Shown piece after piece: positions 4,042-14,752 of a stretch of 64,000 nt of DNA. The notes below the pieces were generated by a model. The model had not been told where the DNA came from. It did not search any database and saw only the letters and a list, made by a program, of their open reading frames with translations. The translations under genes and the position numbers were made by a program. The first letter of the stretch is position 1, and the number at the start of each line of letters is the position of its first letter. The DNA comes from Chryseobacterium koreense CCUG 49689 (GTDB taxonomy: Bacteria > Bacteroidota > Bacteroidia > Flavobacteriales > Weeksellaceae). The stretch spans positions 1 through 64,000 of the forward strand of contig NZ_LFNG01000011.1 in NCBI RefSeq assembly GCF_001045435.1, in the 5' to 3' direction.

Positions 4042-4779
4042 ATGAAAAAGTATTATTTATATATTGATGAAAGTGGTGATCACGGATTGGTAAATCTAGA
4101 TAGGAATTTTCCGGTATTTTTATTGTGTGGAGTCCTTGTTTCAGATGAAAATTATAATATAATACGCAGCACAATTAATGTGGTTAAACGGAATTTTTGG
4201 GGGAGTAAAGAAGTAATTTTTCATTCCAGGAATATCAGAAAATGCAATAAAGAGTTTCAGGTTCTGTTTGATTTAGACTTAAAAAGTAAATTCTATGAGC
4301 ATGTTAACCGGATTATTCAGGATTCCAAATACAGGATTATCGCTTCCGCGATCAGTAAAGAAAAATATATAAAAAATTACGGCAGGCTTTCCAATGACGT
4401 CTATGAATTGGCATTGTCCTTTATTATAGAGCGGGCTGTGTTCTGCTTAGATGAAAAGAAAGATGAAAACAAGCAATTGGAAATAGTCATTGAAAAAAGA
4501 GGAAAGAAGGAGGATAAAAAACTGGAAGAACATTTTCAGCGTCTGATGTCAAGAGGCACAGCTTACATCGAGGCCGGGCGACTGGCAGATTTAAAAATCA
4601 CCATTCACTTTAAGGATAAAAAAGAGAACATCAATGGATTACAGCTGGCGGATTTAGTTGCTTATCCAATCGCGAGATATGTCATAGAGCCAGAGCGGGC
4701 CAATCCGGCTTTTGAAGTTTTAAAAGATAAAATATATAGTAAAGGCAACAAAAGATATGGACTCAAAATATTCCCTTAA
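4042..4779 (+). CDS. DUF3800 domain-containing protein
   Basis: The 245-residue protein starts with the DUF3800 hallmark YLYIDESGDHG (residues 5-15) and ends with NGLQLADLVAYPIARY (near residues 192-207). The acidic residues in these two segments match the metal-binding positions proposed for this RNase H-like fold. DUF3800 proteins are frequent in defence islands, but I know of no settled activity. The ATG at 4042 lies one base after the hsdM stop, so translation is probably coupled and the protein made together with HsdM. It sits between hsdM and hsdS, an unusual position that suggests a role linked to the RM system. Confidence 0.88.
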   Translation: MKKYYLYIDESGDHGLVNLDRNFPVFLLCGVLVSDENYNIIRSTINVVKRNFWGSKEVIFHSRNIRKCNKEFQVLFDLDLKSKFYEHVNRIIQDSKYRIIASAISKEKYIKNYGRLSNDVYELALSFIIERAVFCLDEKKDENKQLEIVIEKRGKKEDKKLEEHFQRLMSRGTAYIEAGRLADLKITIHFKDKKENINGLQLADLVAYPIARYVIEPERANPAFEVLKDKIYSKGNKRYGLKIFP

Positions 4780-4898: not shown

Positions 4899-4948
4899 GA
4901 TTTAATATCCTCAATCTTTGTAACACCAACAAAAGAGTAACCAAGACG

Positions 4949-6163
4949 ATGACAGAAAAATTGAAAAGTCGAAATTTTCCAAATTTGAGATTTCCGGGGT
5001 TTGAAAAGGAGTGGAATACACGATCGTTAGGCGAATGTTCCGAATTTCTTGACTACGGAATGAATGCTTCTGCAATTAAATTTGATGGGGAAAATAGATA
5101 TATAAGAATTACGGATATTGATGAAAGTTCATCAAAATATAAACCGGAGTTTCCGGTTTCTCCGGCAGGGAATCTTACAGATAAATATCTCGTTCGGGAA
5201 AATGATGTATTGTTTGCTAGAACAGGTGCAAGCACAGGTAAATCCTATCTCTATAATTTAGACGATGGCAAGTTATATTTCGCTGGATTTTTAATAAGAG
5301 CCCGCATCAAGAAAGTCTTTAATCCTTATTTCATATTTATTCAAACTCAAACAGAAAAGTATAAAAGATGGGTTAAATTAATGTCGATGAGATCCGGCCA
5401 GCCCGGTATTAATTCACAAGAATATGCAAGTTACTGCTTCGAAGCTCCTAATAGGACAGAACAGGATAAAATTTCGACGTTTTTATCTGACATTGATAGC
5501 AGAATTCACACCCAAAAGAAAATAATTGACGACTTAAAATTATTATGTAAAGGTGTAATGTATAAACTATTTACACAAAAACTAAGATTGAAAAATGAAC
5601 AAAAAGTAGATTTTTCAAAGTGGAAAATAAAATTTGGAAATGAAATTTTTGAAAGTGTGACAAACAAGAATCATAATTCTGATTTACCAATTCTTGCAAT
5701 AACTCAAGAATATGGTGCTGTGCCAAGAGATCTAATAGATTACAAGATTTCAGTAACAGACAAAAGTGTTGAAAGTTATAAAATAGTAGAGATAGGGGAT
5801 TTTATAATTAGCCTCAGAAGTTTCCAAGGAGGTATCGAATATTCTAATTATAAGGGTATATGTAGTCCGGCTTATATTATATTGAAAAATAAAATACCAA
5901 TCAACTCTCAGTTTTATAAATATTTCCTAAAATCAGAATCGTATATTAAGTTGTTAAATAAAAAACTTGAAGGAATAAGGGACGGCAAGATGATAAGTTA
6001 TTCATATTTCTCTGAAATTGAATTACCGTTTCCTTCACTGGAAGAACAGAATAAAATTGCCAACTTCCTTCTTTCTATATACGAAAAAATTGAAACAGAA
6101 AAGAAAATCTTAGATCAATATGAGTTCCAAAAGAAATATCTTTTGGCAAATCTTTTTGTTTAA
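4949..6163 (+). CDS. hsdS: Type I restriction-modification specificity subunit HsdS (expressed copy)
   Basis: The 404-residue protein has the two-fold HsdS plan. TRD1 spans about residues 12-180 and begins with LRFPGFEKEW. A central helical repeat with QKKIIDDL lies near residues 190-200. TRD2 spans about 215-365 and the distal helical repeat ends in QKKYLLANLFV. Each TRD reads one half of a bipartite recognition site, and the helices set the spacing and hold the HsdM subunits. The start is an ATG at 4949 preceded by a possible -7 element (AATCTTTG, 4913-4920). Its 5' end and centre are repeated in inverted orientation in the convergent second hsdS (6195-7355), so this copy is probably one state of an invertible pair. 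Confidence 0.94.
   Translation: MTEKLKSRNFPNLRFPGFEKEWNTRSLGECSEFLDYGMNASAIKFDGENRYIRITDIDESSSKYKPEFPVSPAGNLTDKYLVRENDVLFARTGASTGKSYLYNLDDGKLYFAGFLIRARIKKVFNPYFIFIQTQTEKYKRWVKLMSMRSGQPGINSQEYASYCFEAPNRTEQDKISTFLSDIDSRIHTQKKIIDDLKLLCKGVMYKLFTQKLRLKNEQKVDFSKWKIKFGNEIFESVTNKNHNSDLPILAITQEYGAVPRDLIDYKISVTDKSVESYKIVEIGDFIISLRSFQGGIEYSNYKGICSPAYIILKNKIPINSQFYKYFLKSESYIKLLNKKLEGIRDGKMISYSYFSEIELPFPSLEEQNKIANFLLSIYEKIETEKKILDQYEFQKKYLLANLFV
4976..5015 (+). repeat. hsdS inverted repeat 1, left arm (5' end)
   Basis: This 40-nt segment at the 5' end of hsdS is repeated in reverse at 7325-7364 with 38/40 matches, including an uninterrupted 22-nt core (4984-5005 against 7335-7356). Recombination here would exchange the whole body of the expressed hsdS for that of the silent one. 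Confidence 0.92.
5513..5529 (+). repeat. hsdS inverted repeat 2, left arm (central conserved region)
   Basis: The 17-nt sequence CAAAAGAAAATAATTGA in the central helical repeat of hsdS occurs in inverted orientation at 6835-6851 with no mismatch, and similarity continues on both sides. Exchange here would swap only TRD2 between the two genes. Confidence 0.85.
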
Positions 6164-6177
6164 AAGTCTTATCAAAG

Positions 6178-6196
6178 TCTCTCTCTCTCTCTCTCT
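6178..6196. repeat. (TC)n dinucleotide repeat between convergent hsdS genes
   Basis: Nineteen bases of uninterrupted TC repeat lie between the stop codon of the plus-strand hsdS (6163) and the stop codon of the minus-strand copy, touching the latter. Length changes should not alter either reading frame. Confidence 0.95.
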
Positions 6197-7355
6197 AGAC
6201 GAACAGATTGGCAAGTAGATACTTTTTCTGATTTTCGTAATTAATTACTAAGTCTTTTTCGACGTTAATTTTTTCATCGAGCGAGGAGAGGAATTTAACA
6301 ACTTTGTTTTGTTCTACTAAACTTGGAACTAATATTTTAATTTTTAATAAGTCTGCTTCGTGAATTCGTTTGCTTCCTGAACCAGTAGAAATATCTTCTA
6401 ATTTTTTATAAAAAGATTCCCTTGAAAATAAGTAAAACAAATATTTTCCGTTCAATCTGTCACTATTAATTTCCAAAGCAGGAACATCTGCAGAAGATAG
6501 AAAACCATCATAACAATCTGGTATTATTGCAAATGCACCATTAAACAGATTTTGTTTACCATAAATAAACTGTCCTTTTTCTCTTACAAAATAGTTAGTT
6601 GCTCCTATTGATAAGGTTTCCGATTTTTCATTTTTGTGGACACCCTTTAAATGTAACTTGACAGTTAGCAATTTGTCTTTGTCAATTATATCAGGTTTTA
6701 TCTTACGTGGAATGCTTAAAAATTCACTTAGCGTTTTTGGCTGTAAATGCGAAAAATTATAGTCTTCGGATGTGAATTGTAATTTACCTTCGAATATTTT
6801 CTTAATGACTATATTTTTTACAGTAATTAGGTCCTCAATTATTTTCTTTTGAGTTGTAATTCTTTCATCGAGAATAGAAAATAACATAGCGATTTTCTGC
6901 TGTTCGAGTAGAGACGGTACTTTTATCTCTAAGTTTTTAATGATTTCTGCTGACAAATTTCCCTGGCCCCCTTGCAAAAATGTTTTTGTGACATATTCTT
7001 TCTTTAGCAGGAGATAAGAGTAAATGAAATAATGATTCTCTTCTGACTTTATACATAAAATTGCTTGATTTATTGCTCCGTGTATTTTACAAATTGCAAC
7101 TTCGCCGCTGTTAGCACCATAAAGCGCATACAAAATATCTCCAGTATCAACTAGCTTAGCTGAGGAAGATTTCAAACCTAATTCTGTTATAAACTGCTCA
7201 GTTTTATCTGAATCTATTTCACCTGATCGTATAAAAGGGATGTTTCCGTCAAAGTATTCCTTTTTAGATGTTAAGGGCGTTCCGCCTGAGTAAAAATTAG
7301 CAACCTCATTCAGTTTTTTTAATATCCACTCCTCTTCAAACCCCGGAAATCTCAA
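6195..7355 (-). CDS. Second HsdS specificity cassette, inverted and lacking its own start (probably silent)
   Basis: The minus-strand frame encodes a full two-TRD HsdS body of about 386 residues: RFPGFEEEW at the N-terminus, QKKIIEDL in the centre, QKKYLLANLFV at the C-terminus. No ATG lies in front of it. Upstream codons read F-P-T-L-R in the same frame as the expressed gene, and an in-frame TAA is met eight codons before LRFPG. The only possible start is the TTG near 7355. No promoter is evident on this strand. The TRDs differ from those of the expressed copy, so inversion would give new DNA specificities. It is best read as a storage cassette, intact in coding content. Confidence 0.85.
   Translation of the reverse strand: MRFPGFEEEWILKKLNEVANFYSGGTPLTSKKEYFDGNIPFIRSGEIDSDKTEQFITELGLKSSSAKLVDTGDILYALYGANSGEVAICKIHGAINQAILCIKSEENHYFIYSYLLLKKEYVTKTFLQGGQGNLSAEIIKNLEIKVPSLLEQQKIAMLFSILDERITTQKKIIEDLITVKNIVIKKIFEGKLQFTSEDYNFSHLQPKTLSEFLSIPRKIKPDIIDKDKLLTVKLHLKGVHKNEKSETLSIGATNYFVREKGQFIYGKQNLFNGAFAIIPDCYDGFLSSADVPALEINSDRLNGKYLFYLFSRESFYKKLEDISTGSGSKRIHEADLLKIKILVPSLVEQNKVVKFLSSLDEKINVEKDLVINYENQKKYLLANLFV
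6835..6851 (-). repeat. hsdS inverted repeat 2, right arm
   Basis: Exact reverse complement of 5513-5529, in the central conserved region of the silent hsdS cassette. Confidence 0.85.
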
Positions 7356-7364
7356 AGTTGGAAA
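7325..7364 (-). repeat. hsdS inverted repeat 1, right arm
   Basis: Reverse complement of 4976-5015 with two mismatches, at the 5' end of the silent cassette and about 95 nt from the recombinase gene. Confidence 0.92.
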
Positions 7365-7427
7365 GGCAAAGATTTAAATTGATATATGCTAACTCCTGAA
7401 GACTGGTAATCCTCAATCTTAAATTCA

Positions 7428-7435
7428 TACTTTTA
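7428..7435 (+). promoter_or_regulatory. Candidate -7 element of the recombinase gene
   Basis: TACTTTTA, one base off TAnnTTTG, 23 nt before the recombinase ATG. No clear -33 element is seen. Confidence 0.3.
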
Positions 7436-7457
7436 GGAATAATCAAAAAATTAACTT

Positions 7458-8387
7458 ATGAATTCAAAAAAGACTTTTGCCCAAATCGCGACGCTTTGGA
7501 AAAACGACAAAAAAATGTACGTCAAACGATCTACCTTCTCTGCTTATATTCTATTGCTTGAGAACCACTTACTTCCGGCCTTTGGGGAATATGTGGAGGA
7601 AATTACGGAAACAGTGGTACAAGAGTTTGTATTCCAAAAACTCAATCAGGGATTAAGTCAGAAAAGCATTAAAGATGTGCTGATCGTAATGAGAATGGTG
7701 CTGAAGTTTGGAGCAAAACACAAGCTTTTAACTTATACTCCTTTTGATATTCAGTACCCAACCGTCCGGGAAAGTCAAAGCATTGAAGTTTTGAGTAAAA
7801 CCAATCAGAAAAAGATTATGAACTATGTCCAGGAGCATTTTACGTTCAGGAATCTCGGTGTTTATATCTGTCTGTCTTCGGGCATCCGCATCGGCGAAAT
7901 CTGTGCGCTGGCGTGGGAAGATATTGATACCGACAATGGCGTGATTCATGTCCGTAAAACCATTCAAAGGATCTATATGATTGAAGACGGAATCCGAAAA
8001 ACCGAACTGCTGCTGGATACGCCCAAAACGAAAAACTCCATCCGGGAAATACCTATGAGCCGGGATCTGCTCCGGATGCTGAAACCATTTAAAAAAATTG
8101 TTAATCCTACTTTTTTTGTCTTAACCAATGATGCAAAGCCCACTGAGCCCCGAACCTACAGAGCGTATTATAAGAACCTGATGGCCGCTCTCGAGATTCC
8201 CGAACTGAAATTTCACGGATTGAGGCACAGTTTTGCCACCCGGTGTATTGAGAGCAATTGCGATTACAAAACGGTGAGCGTTCTGTTGGGACACTCGAAT
8301 ATCAGTACTACCTTAAACCTGTACGTACATCCCAATATGGAACAGAAGAAGAAGGCGATTGAACAGATGTTTAAGGCGCTGAAATAA
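7458..8387 (+). CDS. Tyrosine-type site-specific recombinase (probable hsdS invertase)
   Basis: The 309-residue protein has an N-terminal SAM-like core-binding domain (about 5-95) and a C-terminal catalytic domain. The catalytic set is complete: R144 (in SGIRIGE), K190 or K192, H253 and R256 (in HGLRHSFATR), H279 (in LLGHSN) and the nucleophile Y289 (in LNLYVHP). It lies directly beside the silent hsdS cassette and inside the type I locus, the place where invertases of phase-variable type I systems are found. I infer that it recombines the hsdS inverted repeats. A relic phage or ICE integrase is the alternative, but no other phage or ICE gene is present. Confidence 0.93.
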   Translation: MNSKKTFAQIATLWKNDKKMYVKRSTFSAYILLLENHLLPAFGEYVEEITETVVQEFVFQKLNQGLSQKSIKDVLIVMRMVLKFGAKHKLLTYTPFDIQYPTVRESQSIEVLSKTNQKKIMNYVQEHFTFRNLGVYICLSSGIRIGEICALAWEDIDTDNGVIHVRKTIQRIYMIEDGIRKTELLLDTPKTKNSIREIPMSRDLLRMLKPFKKIVNPTFFVLTNDAKPTEPRTYRAYYKNLMAALEIPELKFHGLRHSFATRCIESNCDYKTVSVLLGHSNISTTLNLYVHPNMEQKKKAIEQMFKALK

Positions 8388-8428
8388 TTATTTATTTGAT
8401 AAAAATATTGTACCTTTAACGCAACAGT

Positions 8429-8480
8429 ACACACCACGCTACCCGCAGAACAGCGTCCCAGGGTGTGTCTTTTGCTTTTT
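8429..8480 (+). terminator. Intrinsic terminator 1 after the recombinase gene
   Basis: Bulged 12-bp stem (arms 8429-8440 and 8452-8468) followed by TTTTGCTTTTT. Confidence 0.7.
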
Positions 8481-8484
8481 ATCC

Positions 8485-8522
8485 GATAATTCTTTTACCG
8501 CTTTAAAAGAATTATCTTTTTT
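8485..8522 (+). terminator. Intrinsic terminator 2 before hsdR
   Basis: Perfect 12-bp stem (8485-8496 with 8505-8516), 8-nt loop, then TTTTTT. Confidence 0.85.
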
Positions 8523-8584
8523 ATATTTGAAAAGCATTTGCATCTAAGCAGAAAATCCTGAAACATTAAAAATAGAAAACACGA

Positions 8585-11446
8585 ATGTCGAGCCAACCCG
8601 AATATATTTTAGAACAGAAACTTGTAGAGCAGTTAGCAGAACTGGGTCACAAAAAAGTGAAAATCAGCAATGAGGCTGATCTGATCCGGAACTTAAAAGT
8701 ACAGCTCGAAGTTCACAATAAGAAAGTATTTTCGGAGAAAGAGTTTGAAAAGATACTTAACCACCTTTCGAAAGGAAGTGTTTTTGAAAAAGCAAAGTTA
8801 CTGCGCGACCGTTTTCAGTTTACCAGAGACGACGGCTCCTCAGAATGGATTGAATTCATTAATCAGGATCACTGGTGCCAGAACCAGTTTCAGGTGACGC
8901 AACAGATTGCTCAGCAGGGAGAATATAAAAACCGTTATGATGTCACCGTGTTAATTAACGGGCTGCCTCTGGTGCAGATCGAGCTGAAAAGAAGGGGGCT
9001 GGAAATGAAGGAAGCCTTCAACCAGATCAACCGCTATCATCACCAGTCCTTCACTTCCGGAAGTGGCTTGTTTAATTTTGTGCAACTTTTTGTCATCAGC
9101 AACGGGGTTAATACCAAATATTATTCAAATAACGCGAAGCAGACTTTCAAGCAGACTTTTTTCTGGTCCGATGAGGAAAATAATACGATTACCCAACTCG
9201 ACGAATTTGCACAGGCATTTCTAGAGCCGTGTCATATTGCCAAGATGATCACAAAATACATTGTGCTGAACCAAACCTACAAAATCCTAATGGTGCTGCG
9301 GCCTTACCAGTATTATGCCGTGGAAAAGATTGTAGAAAAGGTCAGGAATACTGACAATAACGGATTTATCTGGCATACCACGGGCTCAGGAAAAACACTC
9401 ACCGCTTTTAAAGCAAGCCAGATACTTAAGGAAATTCCTAAAGTGGAAAAGGTCGTGTTTGTGGTCGATAGGAAGGATCTCGACTATCAAACGCAGAAGG
9501 AGTTTGATGCTTTTGAGAAAGGGAGTGTGGATGCAACTGAAAATACGCATCACTTGGTAAAGCAACTGGCAGATAATACGAAACTCATCGTCACCACCCT
9601 CCAAAAGCTCAATACTGCCATTACCAAAGAAAAACATGGCCGGAAAATAGAGCGGCTGAAAGATAAAAAGGTAGTTTTTATTTTTGATGAATGCCACAGG
9701 AGTCAGTTTGGAGAAACGCATCAGAACATCAGGAAGTACTTTGGGAAAGCGCAGATGATCGGTTTTACAGGAACCCCGATTTCTGAAAAAAATGCCGTGG
9801 GAAAACTTGAAGGAGTACCGGCGACCACCAATATGCTTTTCGGAGACTGCCTGCATAAATATGTCATTACCGATGCCATCCGGGATGACAATGTTCTGAA
9901 GTTTTCAGTGGAATACGTAGGACGTTATAAGGAGAAGGAAGGAAGCAATACCTATATTGATACCGAAGTGGAGGGCATCAATACTCAGGAACTTCTTGAA
10001 AGCCCGCAGCGTATTGAAAAAATCGCCGATTATATTATTTCGGAATATGGCAGGAAAACCCATCAGAAAACATTCAATGCCATGTTTTGTGTGAGCAGTA
10101 TCGACGTGCTTCAGAAATACTATGATCATTTCAAGACGAAAAAAGAAGAGGGAAGACATGGGCTCAAAGTAGCCACGATTTTCAGTTACGGAACTAATGA
10201 AGAGGCAAAAGAAGCCGATGGAAGTTACGAAGAGGCGGATGAACTGGCGATGGTTGCGGAGCCTGCTGCGCAGTATGGATATTCCCACAGCAGGAATGTC
10301 CTGGAAAGGTATATTGGGGACTACAATGAGATGTTCGGAACCAACTTTACTACGAAAGACAGTCAGAGTTTCTACAACTACTATAATGACATCGCAAAGA
10401 AAGTAAGAAACAAAGATCTGGACCTCATCATCGTCGTCAATATGTTTCTGACGGGATTCGACAGTCCCCAAATTAACACGCTATTCGTTGATAAGAATCT
10501 TAAATACCATGGCCTTATACAGGCATTCTCCAGAACCAACAGGATATTGGGGGAGAAAAAATCTCAGGGAAATATTGTCTGTTTCAGAAATCTGAAATCT
10601 GCCACTGATGAGGCGGTGACTTTATTTTCAAACAAAGAAAGCATCAATGAAATTATCATACAGCCCATCGAAGACTATATTGAACTGTTCAATGCCGCTT
10701 TATTGAAACTGAAAGCAATTGCGCCGGAGATATCCAGCGTAGACCGTTTTCAAACAGAGCAGGAGCAATTTGAATTTGTACAGGCGTTCCGGGAAGTCAT
10801 GCGGATGCTGAATGTTTTAAAGTCTTTTGCTGATTTCAGTTTTGATGCCCTGGATATGGATGAATTTGAATTCGACGGCTATAAAAGTAAATATCTGGAT
10901 ATTTGGACTACTACGCATCCTAAAACTGGAGATGGGAAAGTCAGTATTTTGGATGATGTTGACTTTGAGCTGGAACTGATACACCGCGATGAAATTAATG
11001 TCAGTTATATCCTGACCCTCTTGGCCAGCTTAAAAGACTCTGACCTAAAAGGTTCGAAGCGGGAACAGAAGATGAAAGAGATTCGTGAGATCCTGTCCGG
11101 TGATGCACAGTTGCGCAGCAAGAAGGCATTGATTGAGAAGTTCATCGAAGAAAATATGCCTTTAATCACAGATGGTGATTCGGTAACCGACGAATTTCAA
11201 ACTTACTGGAATAAAGAGAAAACGGCAGCTTTTGAAAAGATCGCGGAAGAGGAATCCCTTAATAAAGCCCAATTTCAGGAAACGATCAATCAGTTTCTGT
11301 TTACCTCCAAGGTGCCAAAACTGAGTGAAGCATTACAGCTGCTTGAAGTTAAACCGAAACTCACAGAAAGAAATAATATCGGAAAGCGAATCATCCAAAA
11401 GGTTCAGGATTTTGTGGAGGTATTTATTGAAGGAGTGGAGGGGTAG
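8585..11446 (+). CDS. hsdR: Type I restriction endonuclease subunit HsdR
   Basis: The 953-residue protein is the ATP-dependent translocase/nuclease of the locus. The N-terminal PD-(D/E)xK nuclease shows D119, E133 and K135 (RYDV, then QIELKR), with the same spacing as in EcoR124I-type subunits. The SF2 motor has Walker A TTGSGKT near residues 265-271, DECH near 368-371, a GFTGTP motif III near 395, and a motif VI-like FSRTNR near 659. The C-terminal helical region binds the HsdM2-HsdS core. It restricts DNA lacking the host methylation pattern. Its own terminator-delimited unit downstream of the recombinase suggests separate control from hsdM-hsdS. Full length, no defect seen. Confidence 0.95.
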   Translation: MSSQPEYILEQKLVEQLAELGHKKVKISNEADLIRNLKVQLEVHNKKVFSEKEFEKILNHLSKGSVFEKAKLLRDRFQFTRDDGSSEWIEFINQDHWCQNQFQVTQQIAQQGEYKNRYDVTVLINGLPLVQIELKRRGLEMKEAFNQINRYHHQSFTSGSGLFNFVQLFVISNGVNTKYYSNNAKQTFKQTFFWSDEENNTITQLDEFAQAFLEPCHIAKMITKYIVLNQTYKILMVLRPYQYYAVEKIVEKVRNTDNNGFIWHTTGSGKTLTAFKASQILKEIPKVEKVVFVVDRKDLDYQTQKEFDAFEKGSVDATENTHHLVKQLADNTKLIVTTLQKLNTAITKEKHGRKIERLKDKKVVFIFDECHRSQFGETHQNIRKYFGKAQMIGFTGTPISEKNAVGKLEGVPATTNMLFGDCLHKYVITDAIRDDNVLKFSVEYVGRYKEKEGSNTYIDTEVEGINTQELLESPQRIEKIADYIISEYGRKTHQKTFNAMFCVSSIDVLQKYYDHFKTKKEEGRHGLKVATIFSYGTNEEAKEADGSYEEADELAMVAEPAAQYGYSHSRNVLERYIGDYNEMFGTNFTTKDSQSFYNYYNDIAKKVRNKDLDLIIVVNMFLTGFDSPQINTLFVDKNLKYHGLIQAFSRTNRILGEKKSQGNIVCFRNLKSATDEAVTLFSNKESINEIIIQPIEDYIELFNAALLKLKAIAPEISSVDRFQTEQEQFEFVQAFREVMRMLNVLKSFADFSFDALDMDEFEFDGYKSKYLDIWTTTHPKTGDGKVSILDDVDFELELIHRDEINVSYILTLLASLKDSDLKGSKREQKMKEIREILSGDAQLRSKKALIEKFIEENMPLITDGDSVTDEFQTYWNKEKTAAFEKIAEEESLNKAQFQETINQFLFTSKVPKLSEALQLLEVKPKLTERNNIGKRIIQKVQDFVEVFIEGVEG

Positions 11447-11488
11447 CAGATAGAATCAGCACGATACATAATTTAGTAATAATTTGAA

Positions 11489-13528
11489 ATGAGTATATAC
11501 AGGGACTTACAAATACAGGTTTTTAACTGGCTTAAAAGTAAACACGAGACTGATGATAATTTTACGTTTTCAGTTCGGCAGAAAGCAAACAAAGGAGCGG
11601 AACTGAACTACTTTATCGGGACCGAAAAATCGAGATATTTTTCCACCACTTTTTGGTATATACCTGTAGCATATCCAGGTTCGTCCGGTGATCTTATCAA
11701 TTTGGTTTTTACCGTGACTAAAAATAATAAAATTGAATTTCACTTTCAGTTCAACCAGACAAAATCTCCAATAGATAATCAAAACAGATATGCCCTGGAA
11801 TTTATTCAAAGTATAAAACCTTTGTTTAAAGAAAAATTTCCTAACGGTTATTATGCGCCCGATTCTAATAAAATGGAATTTTTTGCGGCTTATTCCAAAC
11901 CTGTTTATGATAATTTTGAAGAACTCCAGGATGATTTAAATAATTTTTTGAACGAGATTTTGCCCATTGTTAATCAGCAAATTCTTATTTATAAAAATAA
12001 ATATCCGGATTTTATTGCTAACAGATTTTCACAAGAAGATCAAACGAAAATGTTTGGAAAAATGGAAGAACGTTTTCAAAGATATAAAATTATTGAGGAG
12101 CTTGAAGACGAACTGGAAGAAGAGGATGATTTAATTATTGTTACGCCTTCGGAATTTAAAATGCCGCTCAATCAAATTCTATACGGCCCACCAGGAACCG
12201 GAAAGACTTATCATAGTATTAATAAAGCCATCAGCATCGCCAATCCAGAATTTGATCTTAATCAGGAAAGAGACCTGGTTAAAAAAGAGTACCAACGCTT
12301 GGTGGACGCAGGCCAAATTGTGTTTACTACTTTCCATCAAAGCATGAGTTATGAGGATTTTGTGGAAGGGATTAAACCGGAAATTGAAGAAGATTCTGAG
12401 GGAGTAAAGACTGTGATCTACGAGATTAAGAAAGGGATTTTCAAGGAGATTTCGGAAAATGCACAAACAATCAGGCTTCAGTCTGAAGAAGTAAGGAGTA
12501 AATATACTTTTGATGATGCCTGGGATGATCTTCTGAAGGAGGCAGATGAGCACATTAATGGCGAACAATTCATGATACTTGGTATTCAGACAGCAGGAAT
12601 GGGATTGAATATTGTCGCGATTACTGACAAAGGAAACTTAAAAGTTCAACCACAATCTTCTAATGAGGCAAGAGAGTATACGGTCTCTTTTTCCCGTGCT
12701 AAAAAACTTCAGGCAGCTTTTCCTGACCTCACCGTCATTAAAAATATTGATAAAGAATTCAGAGAAGTTATTGGGGGATCTAATTCTACTGCTTACTGGG
12801 CAGTGGTAAAATATATAAATGATAAAATAAAATCTAAAACAAAACCTATCACTCAGGAAATACCACTGCCTGCAGTACCTTATGTATTAATCATTGATGA
12901 AATCAACAGAGGGAATGTTTCCCAAATTTTCGGAGAACTGATCACCTTGATCGAAGAAGATAAACGTCTGGGAAATCCGGAGGAACTGCAGCTCACCCTA
13001 CCATATAGCAAAACCAAATTCGGGGTGCCGTCCAATGTCTATATCATTGGGACAATGAATACTGCAGACCGTAGTGTAGAAGCGTTGGATACTGCACTCA
13101 GACGGCGTTTTTTCTTTGAGGAAATGCTTCCTGATCTTGAAGTGCTTACCGATAAGAAAATTGAAGGAATAGCATTGAAGGAACTTTTAGGAACGATAAA
13201 TAAAAGGGTAGAAATCCTTCTTGACAGAGATCATACTATTGGACATTCGTATCTTATGAATATCAATTCTGAAGAGGACCTTAAAAGTACTTTCAGAAAT
13301 AATATTATTCCTTTGTTGCAAGAGTATTTCTATGGAGATTACGAAAAAATAGGATTGATTTTGGGAAAAGGTTTTTTTGAAGACTCTGAAAATTATACTA
13401 AAGATATTTTCGCTTCCTTCCCTACACAGAACTATCCTGAGAATGGGAGTGTTCTGCGTTTAAAGCCGATCGATGAAACTTTTAATATTATTGAAGCTTT
13501 AGAAAGTCTTCTTATTAAAGCAAAGTAA
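11489..13528 (+). CDS. mcrB: McrB-like AAA+ GTPase of a modification-dependent restriction system
   Basis: The 679-residue protein has a C-terminal McrB-type AAA+ domain: Walker A GPPGTGKT at about residues 232-239, Walker B LIIDEINRG near 467-475, and the McrB signature MNTADRS near 523-529 followed by the arginine-rich RRRFFF. McrB uses GTP and forms hexamers with McrC to translocate and cut DNA with modified cytosines. The first 220 residues, with an acidic coiled stretch (EELEDELEEEDD) before the AAA+ domain, are not the classical N-terminal domain of E. coli McrB; I do not recognise this module, which presumably sets target recognition. The stop codon abuts the mcrC start, so the pair is an operon. 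Confidence 0.92.
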   Translation: MSIYRDLQIQVFNWLKSKHETDDNFTFSVRQKANKGAELNYFIGTEKSRYFSTTFWYIPVAYPGSSGDLINLVFTVTKNNKIEFHFQFNQTKSPIDNQNRYALEFIQSIKPLFKEKFPNGYYAPDSNKMEFFAAYSKPVYDNFEELQDDLNNFLNEILPIVNQQILIYKNKYPDFIANRFSQEDQTKMFGKMEERFQRYKIIEELEDELEEEDDLIIVTPSEFKMPLNQILYGPPGTGKTYHSINKAISIANPEFDLNQERDLVKKEYQRLVDAGQIVFTTFHQSMSYEDFVEGIKPEIEEDSEGVKTVIYEIKKGIFKEISENAQTIRLQSEEVRSKYTFDDAWDDLLKEADEHINGEQFMILGIQTAGMGLNIVAITDKGNLKVQPQSSNEAREYTVSFSRAKKLQAAFPDLTVIKNIDKEFREVIGGSNSTAYWAVVKYINDKIKSKTKPITQEIPLPAVPYVLIIDEINRGNVSQIFGELITLIEEDKRLGNPEELQLTLPYSKTKFGVPSNVYIIGTMNTADRSVEALDTALRRRFFFEEMLPDLEVLTDKKIEGIALKELLGTINKRVEILLDRDHTIGHSYLMNINSEEDLKSTFRNNIIPLLQEYFYGDYEKIGLILGKGFFEDSENYTKDIFASFPTQNYPENGSVLRLKPIDETFNIIEALESLLIKAK

Positions 13529-14752
13529 ATGCCTAGGATTCAGGTTTTCGAACACAGCTTTTTGGCCATAGGGGAAAAAGGATTTGGTCAACGTCATTTT
13601 ATAGCGTTGTCGAAGCTCAATGCCTTACACAATTATCAATATTTCGATCTTAAACACAATGGGGTGGTGTTTAAACAGTTTGTGGGCGTCGTGCAAATTG
13701 ACGGTCTCACGATTGAAATTTTGCCTAAAGTGGACCAATATGAGGTAGAAAATGAAGAGACAAAGAACAAGTGGCAGTCTGTTTTAATAGAAATGTTACG
13801 AGTTACTCGTAAATTGAAGATACAGAAAGTTGGTGAGGCCCAGCTTTCCAAACAGTCTATTCATTTATTAGATCTCTATTTTGAATGGTTTCTCAATGAA
13901 ATGCAGGTTTTGATTCATCAAGGTCTAATAAAGCAATACTACAAACAGACGGGAAACGTAAAAGCTTTGAAAGGTAAACTGGAATTTGCAGGTCATATTC
14001 AGAAAAATCTTGTTCATAAAGAACGTTTTTATACGACGCATCAAGTGTATGAAAAAGACCATCTCGTGCATCAGATTTTGGGCCAGGCTTTAGAGATTGT
14101 AGCTGCATTATCGAAAGGAACCTATCTGTACAGTAAATGTAAAACCGTGCAGTTGGATTTTCCAGCTGTAGCCTCCATCAAAGCCAATGAAAATACATTT
14201 ACAAAAATTCCGAAATCCCGAAAAACTGCCCCTTACGAAACTGCTGTCTCAATAGCAAGATTAATCATCCTAAACTATGCTCCCAATGTTTCAAGCGGTT
14301 CTGAAAAGTTGCTGGCATTATTATTTGATATGAATAAGCTTTGGGAAGAATATGTTTTAATTCGTCTGAAACAGTCAGTAGTTGGAAAGGAAGGCTATGC
14401 TGTGTATGGTCAAAATGCAACACCTTTTTGGAAAGACATTACGGTAAGACCGGATATTCTTCTAGTTAAAAATAGTGAACGTTTTGTTATTGATACCAAA
14501 TGGAAAAACATTGACTATGGCGAACCTTCTACTGATGATTTGCGACAGATGTATGTTTACAATGAATATTGGGATTGTAGAAAATCACTCTTACTTTATC
14601 CTTCTAATCAATCCGATTTTAAAGGGTTTGTGGGATTTGTAAAAATTTCAGACAATGACCAGCACCAGTGTGGATTAGGCAAAATTTCTGTTTTAAATGC
14701 GGATGGCTCTCTTGATTCAGATATTGGCAGAAAAATATTAGATTTGTTTTAG
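13529..14752 (+). CDS. mcrC: McrC-like endonuclease subunit
   Basis: The 407-residue protein begins immediately after the mcrB stop codon, with no intergenic base. Its C-terminal third carries a PD-(D/E)xK nuclease core: RPDILL near residues 309-314 and VIDTKWK near 323-329. The N-terminal two thirds are the McrC region that contacts the McrB hexamer. Together McrB and McrC make a restriction machine for modified DNA. The adjacent adenine-methylating type I system should not be a target of a cytosine-modification-dependent enzyme, so the two can coexist. Confidence 0.9.
   Translation: MPRIQVFEHSFLAIGEKGFGQRHFIALSKLNALHNYQYFDLKHNGVVFKQFVGVVQIDGLTIEILPKVDQYEVENEETKNKWQSVLIEMLRVTRKLKIQKVGEAQLSKQSIHLLDLYFEWFLNEMQVLIHQGLIKQYYKQTGNVKALKGKLEFAGHIQKNLVHKERFYTTHQVYEKDHLVHQILGQALEIVAALSKGTYLYSKCKTVQLDFPAVASIKANENTFTKIPKSRKTAPYETAVSIARLIILNYAPNVSSGSEKLLALLFDMNKLWEEYVLIRLKQSVVGKEGYAVYGQNATPFWKDITVRPDILLVKNSERFVIDTKWKNIDYGEPSTDDLRQMYVYNEYWDCRKSLLLYPSNQSDFKGFVGFVKISDNDQHQCGLGKISVLNADGSLDSDIGRKILDLF

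Follow-up and report, generated by a model that had tools for sequence, protein, structure and literature searches.

Gene families in which hsdS genes, coding for the specificity subunits of type I restriction-modification (RM) systems, are switched by DNA rearrangement are known mainly from gut Bacteroides and streptococci. According to the accessible parts of the respective papers, the hsdS shufflon of Bacteroides fragilis NCTC 9343 takes eight forms and has a tyrosine integrase next to it as well as a repeat given in print (PMC3090145), a four-way switch has been drawn for the inverting type I systems with two hsdS genes of Streptococcus suis (PMC7394358), mapping of reads has revealed hsdS inversions in a range of bacteria (PMC5903667), and the pneumococcal recombinase PsrA inverts hsdS in vitro (PMC7096588). 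Here we analyse a locus of comparable layout in Chryseobacterium koreense CCUG 49689, located in the first 64,000 nucleotides of contig NZ_LFNG01000011.1 (in the following referred to as the window), in which two hsdS genes lie tail to tail next to a gene for a tyrosine recombinase (Table 1). A preliminary description based on the sequence alone had taken this layout for a phase-variable RM system, a reading that is supported by the comparisons reported below.

In the explanation that we favour, to which as a whole we assign a probability of roughly 0.88, the locus is a four-way hsdS inversion switch driven by its recombinase. The adjacent tyrosine recombinase would exchange strands between a pair of inverted outer sites, one at the 5' end of each hsdS gene, and the outer flip would place the other set of target recognition domains (TRDs) behind the sole start codon. 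Strand exchange would take place within a 7-bp core of about [G/T]TTCCNA (TTTCCAA in the window), which would have to be identical in both arms, and a second, inner pair of sites between the TRDs, with a core of about AAAATAATT, would swap TRD2 separately, giving rise to four HsdS proteins.

A scan of the GTDB species genomes yielded 196 relatives of the recombinase, the best 80 loci of which were kept for comparison; judging by the organism names, these presumably all belong to the Bacteroidota, save one metagenome-assembled genome labelled Ignatzschineria. In the bacterial family of the window, the recombinase was found at E 1e-20 or better in 41 of 296 genomes, the genome of the window included. 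At least 600 nt of sequence are available upstream of the recombinase in 56 loci, and in 55 of these (the miss being L103) a minus-strand hsdS adjoins the recombinase, 46 of the 55 also having a plus-strand hsdS.

Together with the window this amounts to 81 loci, in 39 of which both hsdS copies are long enough for comparing their arms, and four of these 39 are without a clear LRFP motif in one arm. The identity profile as well as the exact-match, synonymous-codon, codon-usage and inner 7-mer tests are based on the 35 LRFP-readable loci (the window included) and the outer 7-mer test on all 39, with L096 and L098, two loci of one genome having identical TRDs, being counted twice. Within 10 nt of the LRFP motif the identity between the two arms of a locus is.88-.92, and it drops to.26-.46 farther out (from about 10 nt on the upstream side and 50 nt on the downstream side). 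The longest exact match between the arms has a mean of 33 nt for the outer site and of 32 nt for the inner one, neither of which was reached by any of 5000 partner permutations. Synonymous codons are also alike more often within than between loci, both at the outer site (375/428 vs 7306/12232, 0/2000 permutations) and at the centre (225/383 vs 5669/12572, 0/2000). For codons +16 to +23 of the centre the values are 223/239 vs 6051/6817 (2/2000), and for codons +24 to +40 they are 116/190 vs 3316/6059 (44/2000). No within-locus effect was seen in two controls, the C-terminal motif (137/265 vs 4388/8614, 786/2000) and the last 13 codons (150/290 vs 4388/8758, 546/2000). By these comparisons the match between the arms exceeds chance or paralogy, and it is the outer and central sites, not the C-termini, that exchange keeps alike.

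As unlinked hsdS genes (21 frames from 18 of 20 regions, with the LRFP motif in 1 of the 21) seem to represent a different HsdS clade, the codons observed at the sites were compared with the background usage in the same genes. At the outer site, Asn is encoded by AAT in 27/27 cases (background.79), Leu by TTG in 28/35 (.19) and Gly by GGG in 13/16 (.14). At the inner site, the respective values are 26/31 for Thr ACC (.16), 16/16 for Asn AAC (.21) and 35/35 for Lys AAA (.75), and for Ile they are 32/34 for ATA (.36) and 30/32 for ATT (.52). Several neighbouring conserved codons are mixed, e.g., Ile +15 (ATT 17, ATC 10, ATA 8) and also Leu +8. Both the outer and the inner site are, by this pattern, constrained as DNA.

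Tyrosine recombinases are known to require identity within a short exchange region, whatever its letters. At the outer site, the two arms carry the same 7-mer of the form [G/T]T[TCA]CCN[AC], which was anchored without the LRFP motif, in 38 of the 39 loci; it comes in ten versions, 35 of the 38 reading [G/T]TTCCNA and the others GTACCGA, GTCCCTA and GTTCCCC. By comparison, only 217 of 1482 between-locus pairs (15%) have it in common, and 5000 permutations gave at most 17 of 39. In the sole miss, L070, the open frame used begins downstream of the repeat, and a 25-nt repeat with GTTCCTA is found there. Unbroken identity at the outer core is 7-11 nt, i.e., the 7-mer plus 0-4 bases, in eight of the 39 loci including the window, in which the 22-nt match resumes one mismatch past the 7-mer. 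No printed description of the mapped outer core was found in the literature searched, and four site strings were matched in the full-text literature only by three papers, the titles of which deal with E. coli McrBC, a chloroplast genome and a nematode protein.

These short identities bear on the question whether the arms might instead be kept alike by RecA-type homologous recombination or gene conversion between the paralogous hsdS genes, with the recombinase as a bystander. Some relatives do have long repeats, that of L041 matching over 181 nt or more, the window has its 22-nt match beside the core, and in the pneumococcus some hsdS inversions continue without PsrA, according to the accessible parts of two reports (PMC4948785, PMC6620402). 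However, arms sharing 7-11 nt offer little for homologous recombination, in two genomes with evidence of assembly forks at the site (see below) the arms have just 7 and 10 bp in common, and the arm match is restricted to the sites, the C-terminal control showing none, which together make this process very unlikely as the source of the pattern.

The 7-mer at the inner site, mostly AAAATAA, is the same in both arms of 32 of the 35 loci as compared to 901 of 1190 comparisons between loci (0/5000 permutations). Two codons past this 7-mer the effect is gone (9/35, 468/5000), and later 7-mers match above expectation again (8/35, 0/5000, and 5/35, 5/5000). The rare variants AAAGTGATT, AAAATCATT and AAAATAATAG are each present in both arms alike, and the variant AAAACGATT is matched in both arms of a second locus in the genome of the window. 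Of the 70 arms, 67 have at most four mismatches to the consensus inner core vs 0 of the 21 unlinked hsdS frames, which are an impure control in that they seem to belong to another clade. The idea that the inner and outer cores are one and the same site was rejected, their resemblance being a weak AATT-GAG, seen by eye.

Direct traces of inversion were sought in the assemblies of the relatives. In 22 of the 80 loci the contig ends 80-300 nt upstream of the recombinase, at the position of the outer repeat, as compared to 1 of 80 in the mirrored downstream stretch (Fisher p 1.2e-6), and when the stretch of 600-800 nt near the inner site is added, the numbers are 27 vs 1 (p 1.8e-8). Several contigs end inside a core, be it outer or inner. 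In Kaistella yonginensis, which belongs to the genus of the window, one and the same 43-nt repeat terminates the contig on the hsdM side and that on the recombinase side, the recombinase contig being titled soapdenovo_K_105. In Chryseobacterium soldanellicola, the contigs with hsdM and with the recombinase both end exactly 95 nt from the start of the site, although the arms have no more than TTTCCTA in common; a distance of 95 nt is also found for the two ends of Epilithonimonas hungarica and for the end on the hsdM side of C. piscicola. Across the 19 distinct ends examined, the distances are 95 (five ends), 97 (Cloacibacterium normanense), 43 (two ends), 10, 9, 88, 168, 141, 59, 123, 134 and 30 nt, with two ends lying before the site. 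We read an overhang of such constant length as the trace of a fork met by a word-based assembler, the assemblers being mostly unstated.

The assembly of Cloacibacterium normanense contains junctions of both outer orientations. On one contig hsdM is joined to TRD1a, and the same contig opens, at base 1, with 97 nt from the hsdM side that run into TRD1b; the recombinase contig has 97 nt of TRD1a at its beginning. The assembly thus includes three of the four possible junctions, and the stretch common to them is only TTTCCTAATT (10 bp). A single genome that does not invert would hold only two of these three. Among the relatives, inversion hence appears to happen, at the outer site and within a short core. 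In two further genomes (G111 and G248) no Methylase_S match was found, though the recombinase and hsdM are present; here it appears that the entire invertible segment was lost at a contig break, and surveys that need an assembled hsdS pair could therefore miss such loci.

A number of observations weigh against this interpretation. The 600-800 nt stretch taken alone gives a weak difference (5/80 vs 0/80 contig ends, p 0.059), three of the 22 ends (L043, L093 and L099) have no clear outer core before the contig end, and seven further ends lie at scattered distances of 30-168 nt. The 95 nt shared in E. hungarica might be a real repeat, because the second arm is not assembled, and the junctions in C. 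normanense could stem from a mixture of two strains. A search for an alternative inner junction in two genomes matched only the query's own place, and the assembly of the window's genome (3.15 Mb in 64 contigs) has one arrangement only and no contig end at the site. Finally, a relative that is 62.8% identical to the recombinase is encoded on a Bacteroides finegoldii plasmid (L160, 6001-6927) beside small hypothetical genes, with no hsdS annotated within 6 kb.

Could matched arms and contig ends alike be artefacts of shared ancestry, of repeats beyond the assembler word or of mixed strains? Both hsdS genes are paralogous, word lengths are available for few of the assemblies, and isolates may be mixed. 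On the other hand, the C-terminal controls show no match, C. normanense itself carries an alternative junction, the break in K. yonginensis occurs at a 43-nt repeat in a K_105 contig, and breaks recur at the same place in many species, so that an explanation by artefacts is exceedingly improbable.

Exchange at the inner site is supported by the matched variants, the codon constraint and some of the contig ends, with no alternative junction captured in the two genomes searched. It is conceivable, albeit rather unlikely, that the recombinase exchanges strands at the outer site and that a different recombinase, or else homologous recombination, acts at the inner one. The two cores do not have the same sequence, which together with the uncaptured junction would fit such a division of labour, and the accessible part of one study describes PsrA as needed for IR1 only (PMC4948785). 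In turn, the arms of a locus agree in their inner variants and there is DNA-level constraint on the inner site, and, as described in the accessible part of another study, PsrA acts on all three repeats in vitro (PMC7096588). We infer that the recombinase of the four-way switch probably also serves the inner site.

For the window itself, all four predicted HsdS forms begin at the ATG at 4949 and have open frames of 396-406 aa: inversion at the outer core, at the inner core or at both would convert the present form of 404 aa into forms of 398, 406 and 396 aa, respectively. The open frame on the silent side comprises 392 aa, and its first listed start codon is a TTG inside the LRFP motif. The preliminary description had concluded that two inversion sites would give up to four HsdS specificities and hence four methylomes; the intact frame in each arrangement is in keeping with four HsdS proteins, whereas inversion in C. 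koreense was not seen, its assembly having the one arrangement. The layout could also be real and the copy in this strain locked while its relatives switch. Consistent with this are the single assembled arrangement and the outer arms of 40 nt (95% complementary, with a 22-nt exact core), one of whose two mismatches directly follows the 7-bp core. We nevertheless regard a locked copy as quite unlikely, as the outer 7-mer and the inner core are identical in both arms, the recombinase is open with its catalytic motifs, all four frames are open, and an assembler may keep the majority form. Inversion would be expected in this strain too, and each form may methylate another sequence, which would give four methylomes.

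Among 769 homologous TRD pairs between loci, the slot is kept in 522 and changed in 247, and 397 of the 769 link an active with a silent copy; TRDs like those of the window occur elsewhere in either slot and in active or silent copies.

The catalytic motifs of tyrosine recombinases are R, K, HxxR, H and Y. The recombinase of the window aligns with the Int protein 6emy (E 2.6e-18) and has kept all of them by comparison with it (girige, tpktk, hglrh, llghs, lyvh); its best matches in the PDB are 6emy and 6en0, which we take to be Tn1549 Int, the database entry saying Int protein only. Position, the behaviour of the sites and precedent are what ties this recombinase to the inversions and suggest that it acts on them. 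Relatives of the recombinase are found in 12 plasmid records, with no hsdS annotated within 6 kb in the three examined, in viral contigs at 2 loci, and in 366 phage records, 308 of which are from Streptococcus, and the recombinase family may invert other loci, too.

A second copy of the recombinase, 81% identical, is encoded on contig C7 of the same genome (G000) in a second operon of the same layout (L118, G000:C7:1-16000, at 4907-13887). Between its two hsdS tails, within the segment that would invert, lies a Fic-like gene (10114-11007), so named by its motif; a relative of this gene was found in 1 of the 80 loci (L090), many loci being cut before that place. The C7 locus has no long repeat at a floor of 11 nt, yet the arms share 10-bp cores at both sites, TCCCCAAATT and GAAAACGATT at the outer and inner site, because of which a reading of this locus as frozen was dropped. 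The cores of the window, TTTCCAA and AAAATAATT, differ from the C7 cores at both sites. One might suspect from this that the 7-bp core works as a locus address, with any [G/T]TTCCNA-like version being accepted if the arms match; since both arms must match, paralogous switches in one cell would therefore be insulated from each other. This reading is rather improbable, and its generality is countered by Epilithonimonas bovis (G101), where GTTCCCC is present at the two loci and only the base that follows it differs.

The features of the locus are given in Table 1. The intact plus-strand hsdS, the convergent hsdS body lacking an ATG in the list of open reading frames, the inverted repeats at the 5' ends and at the centre, and the complete recombinase had all been named in the preliminary description and were recovered at the same positions.

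Table 1. Features of the hsdS inversion locus in the window (positions in the 64,000-nt stretch).
Feature	Position	Strand	Profile match
hsdM, type I methyltransferase, 522 aa	2472..4040	+	TIGR00497 470.9 bits (cut-off 242.75); N6_Mtase E 1.2e-112
DUF3800 protein, 245 aa, between hsdM and hsdS, putative accessory	4042..4779	+	PF12686 E 3e-22
hsdS-A, expressed copy, 404 aa, ATG start, two Methylase_S stretches	4949..6163	+	PF01420 E 1.5e-19
Outer inverted repeat arm 1; putative strand-exchange core TTTCCAA at 4976-4982	4976..5015	+	
Inner inverted repeat arm 1, between TRD1 and TRD2; core AAAATAATT at 5519-5527	5513..5529	+	
hsdS-B, silent, ATG-less body, in tail-to-tail position to hsdS-A	6195..7355	-	PF01420 E 5.7e-35
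Inner inverted repeat arm 2; core AAAATAATT (minus strand) at 6837-6845	6835..6851	-	
Outer inverted repeat arm 2; putative core TTTCCAA (minus strand) at 7358-7364	7325..7364	-	
Tyrosine recombinase, 309 aa, presumed invertase	7458..8387	+	PF00589 (Phage_integrase) E 1.1e-29
hsdR, type I restriction subunit, 953 aa	8585..11446	+	TIGR00348 504.5 bits (cut-off 284.55)

According to the open reading frames and profile matches, the window contains a complete type I RM operon (hsdM, hsdS and hsdR). The inner 17-nt exact match sits within arms of 79 nt that are 72% complementary, and a tract of TC dinucleotides lies at about 6181-6198, between the converging hsdS stops. The DUF3800 gene has no relative among the 80 related loci, 40 of which reach a recognisable hsdM, and a partial relative was found in one other region, L149. 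Directly after hsdR, profile matches reveal a McrB/McrC-like pair (11489-14752), suggestive of a small defence island; McrB relatives are present in 6 and McrC relatives in 3 of the 80 loci, the flanks of which extend to at most 7 kb. Twelve of the 80 loci (L067-L071, L096, L098, L101, L104, L108, L114 and L115) have an extra pair of half-length hsdS genes, in the order plus full, minus half, plus half and minus full hsdS; in L067 and L115 the array is truncated where the contig begins. Most half-length genes are without the inner core inside their own open frame. Such expanded arrays could raise the number of forms.

As an hsdS shufflon or four-way switch, this kind of locus is already known, and what is new is the evidence from relatives that inversion occurs and where. 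The comparison opens the hsdS-switch family to tests across environmental Bacteroidota, and it provides a concrete and mutable 7-bp exchange core together with a public assembly that already contains alternative junctions. In line with the preliminary description, which had pointed to Bacteroides and streptococci, the layout matches both the published four-way switch (PMC7394358) and the B. fragilis shufflon (PMC3090145), as far as the accessible parts of these papers describe them. With the SpnIII/cod locus of the pneumococcus and its recombinase PsrA, the window has in common a tyrosine recombinase encoded at the locus and hsdS inversions, whereas SpnIII/cod has three hsdS genes and three repeats (PMC4948785, PMC7096588, accessible parts). 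The S. suis type shares with the window the placement of the repeats, in front of the 5'-TRD and again between both TRDs, two pairs of TRDs, a scheme of four alleles and, at some loci, a recombinase; however, that survey recorded only repeats matching to 100%, and the accessible part of its text contains no word beginning with Flavobacter or Chryseobacterium (PMC7394358).

Further similarities exist to the B. fragilis shufflon BB (BF1839-1842) and its relative in strain 638R, which also belong to the Bacteroidota, have the tyrosine integrase directly beside the last hsdS and shuffle TRDs by means of repeats, and one printed 38-nt repeat of which includes ACCCAAAACAAAATCAT, the inner core found here (PMC3090145, accessible part). 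This repeat has 6-8 mismatches to the arms of several relatives, shuffled arms having 15 at best, and 11 and 14 mismatches to the silent and the active arm of the window, respectively. Two traits of the B. fragilis-type shufflon, a central repeat with ACCCAAAACAAAAT and a tyrosine integrase adjoining the last hsdS, are both present in the locus of C. koreense, with the difference that eight forms are described for B. fragilis and four are predicted here (PMC3090145, accessible part).

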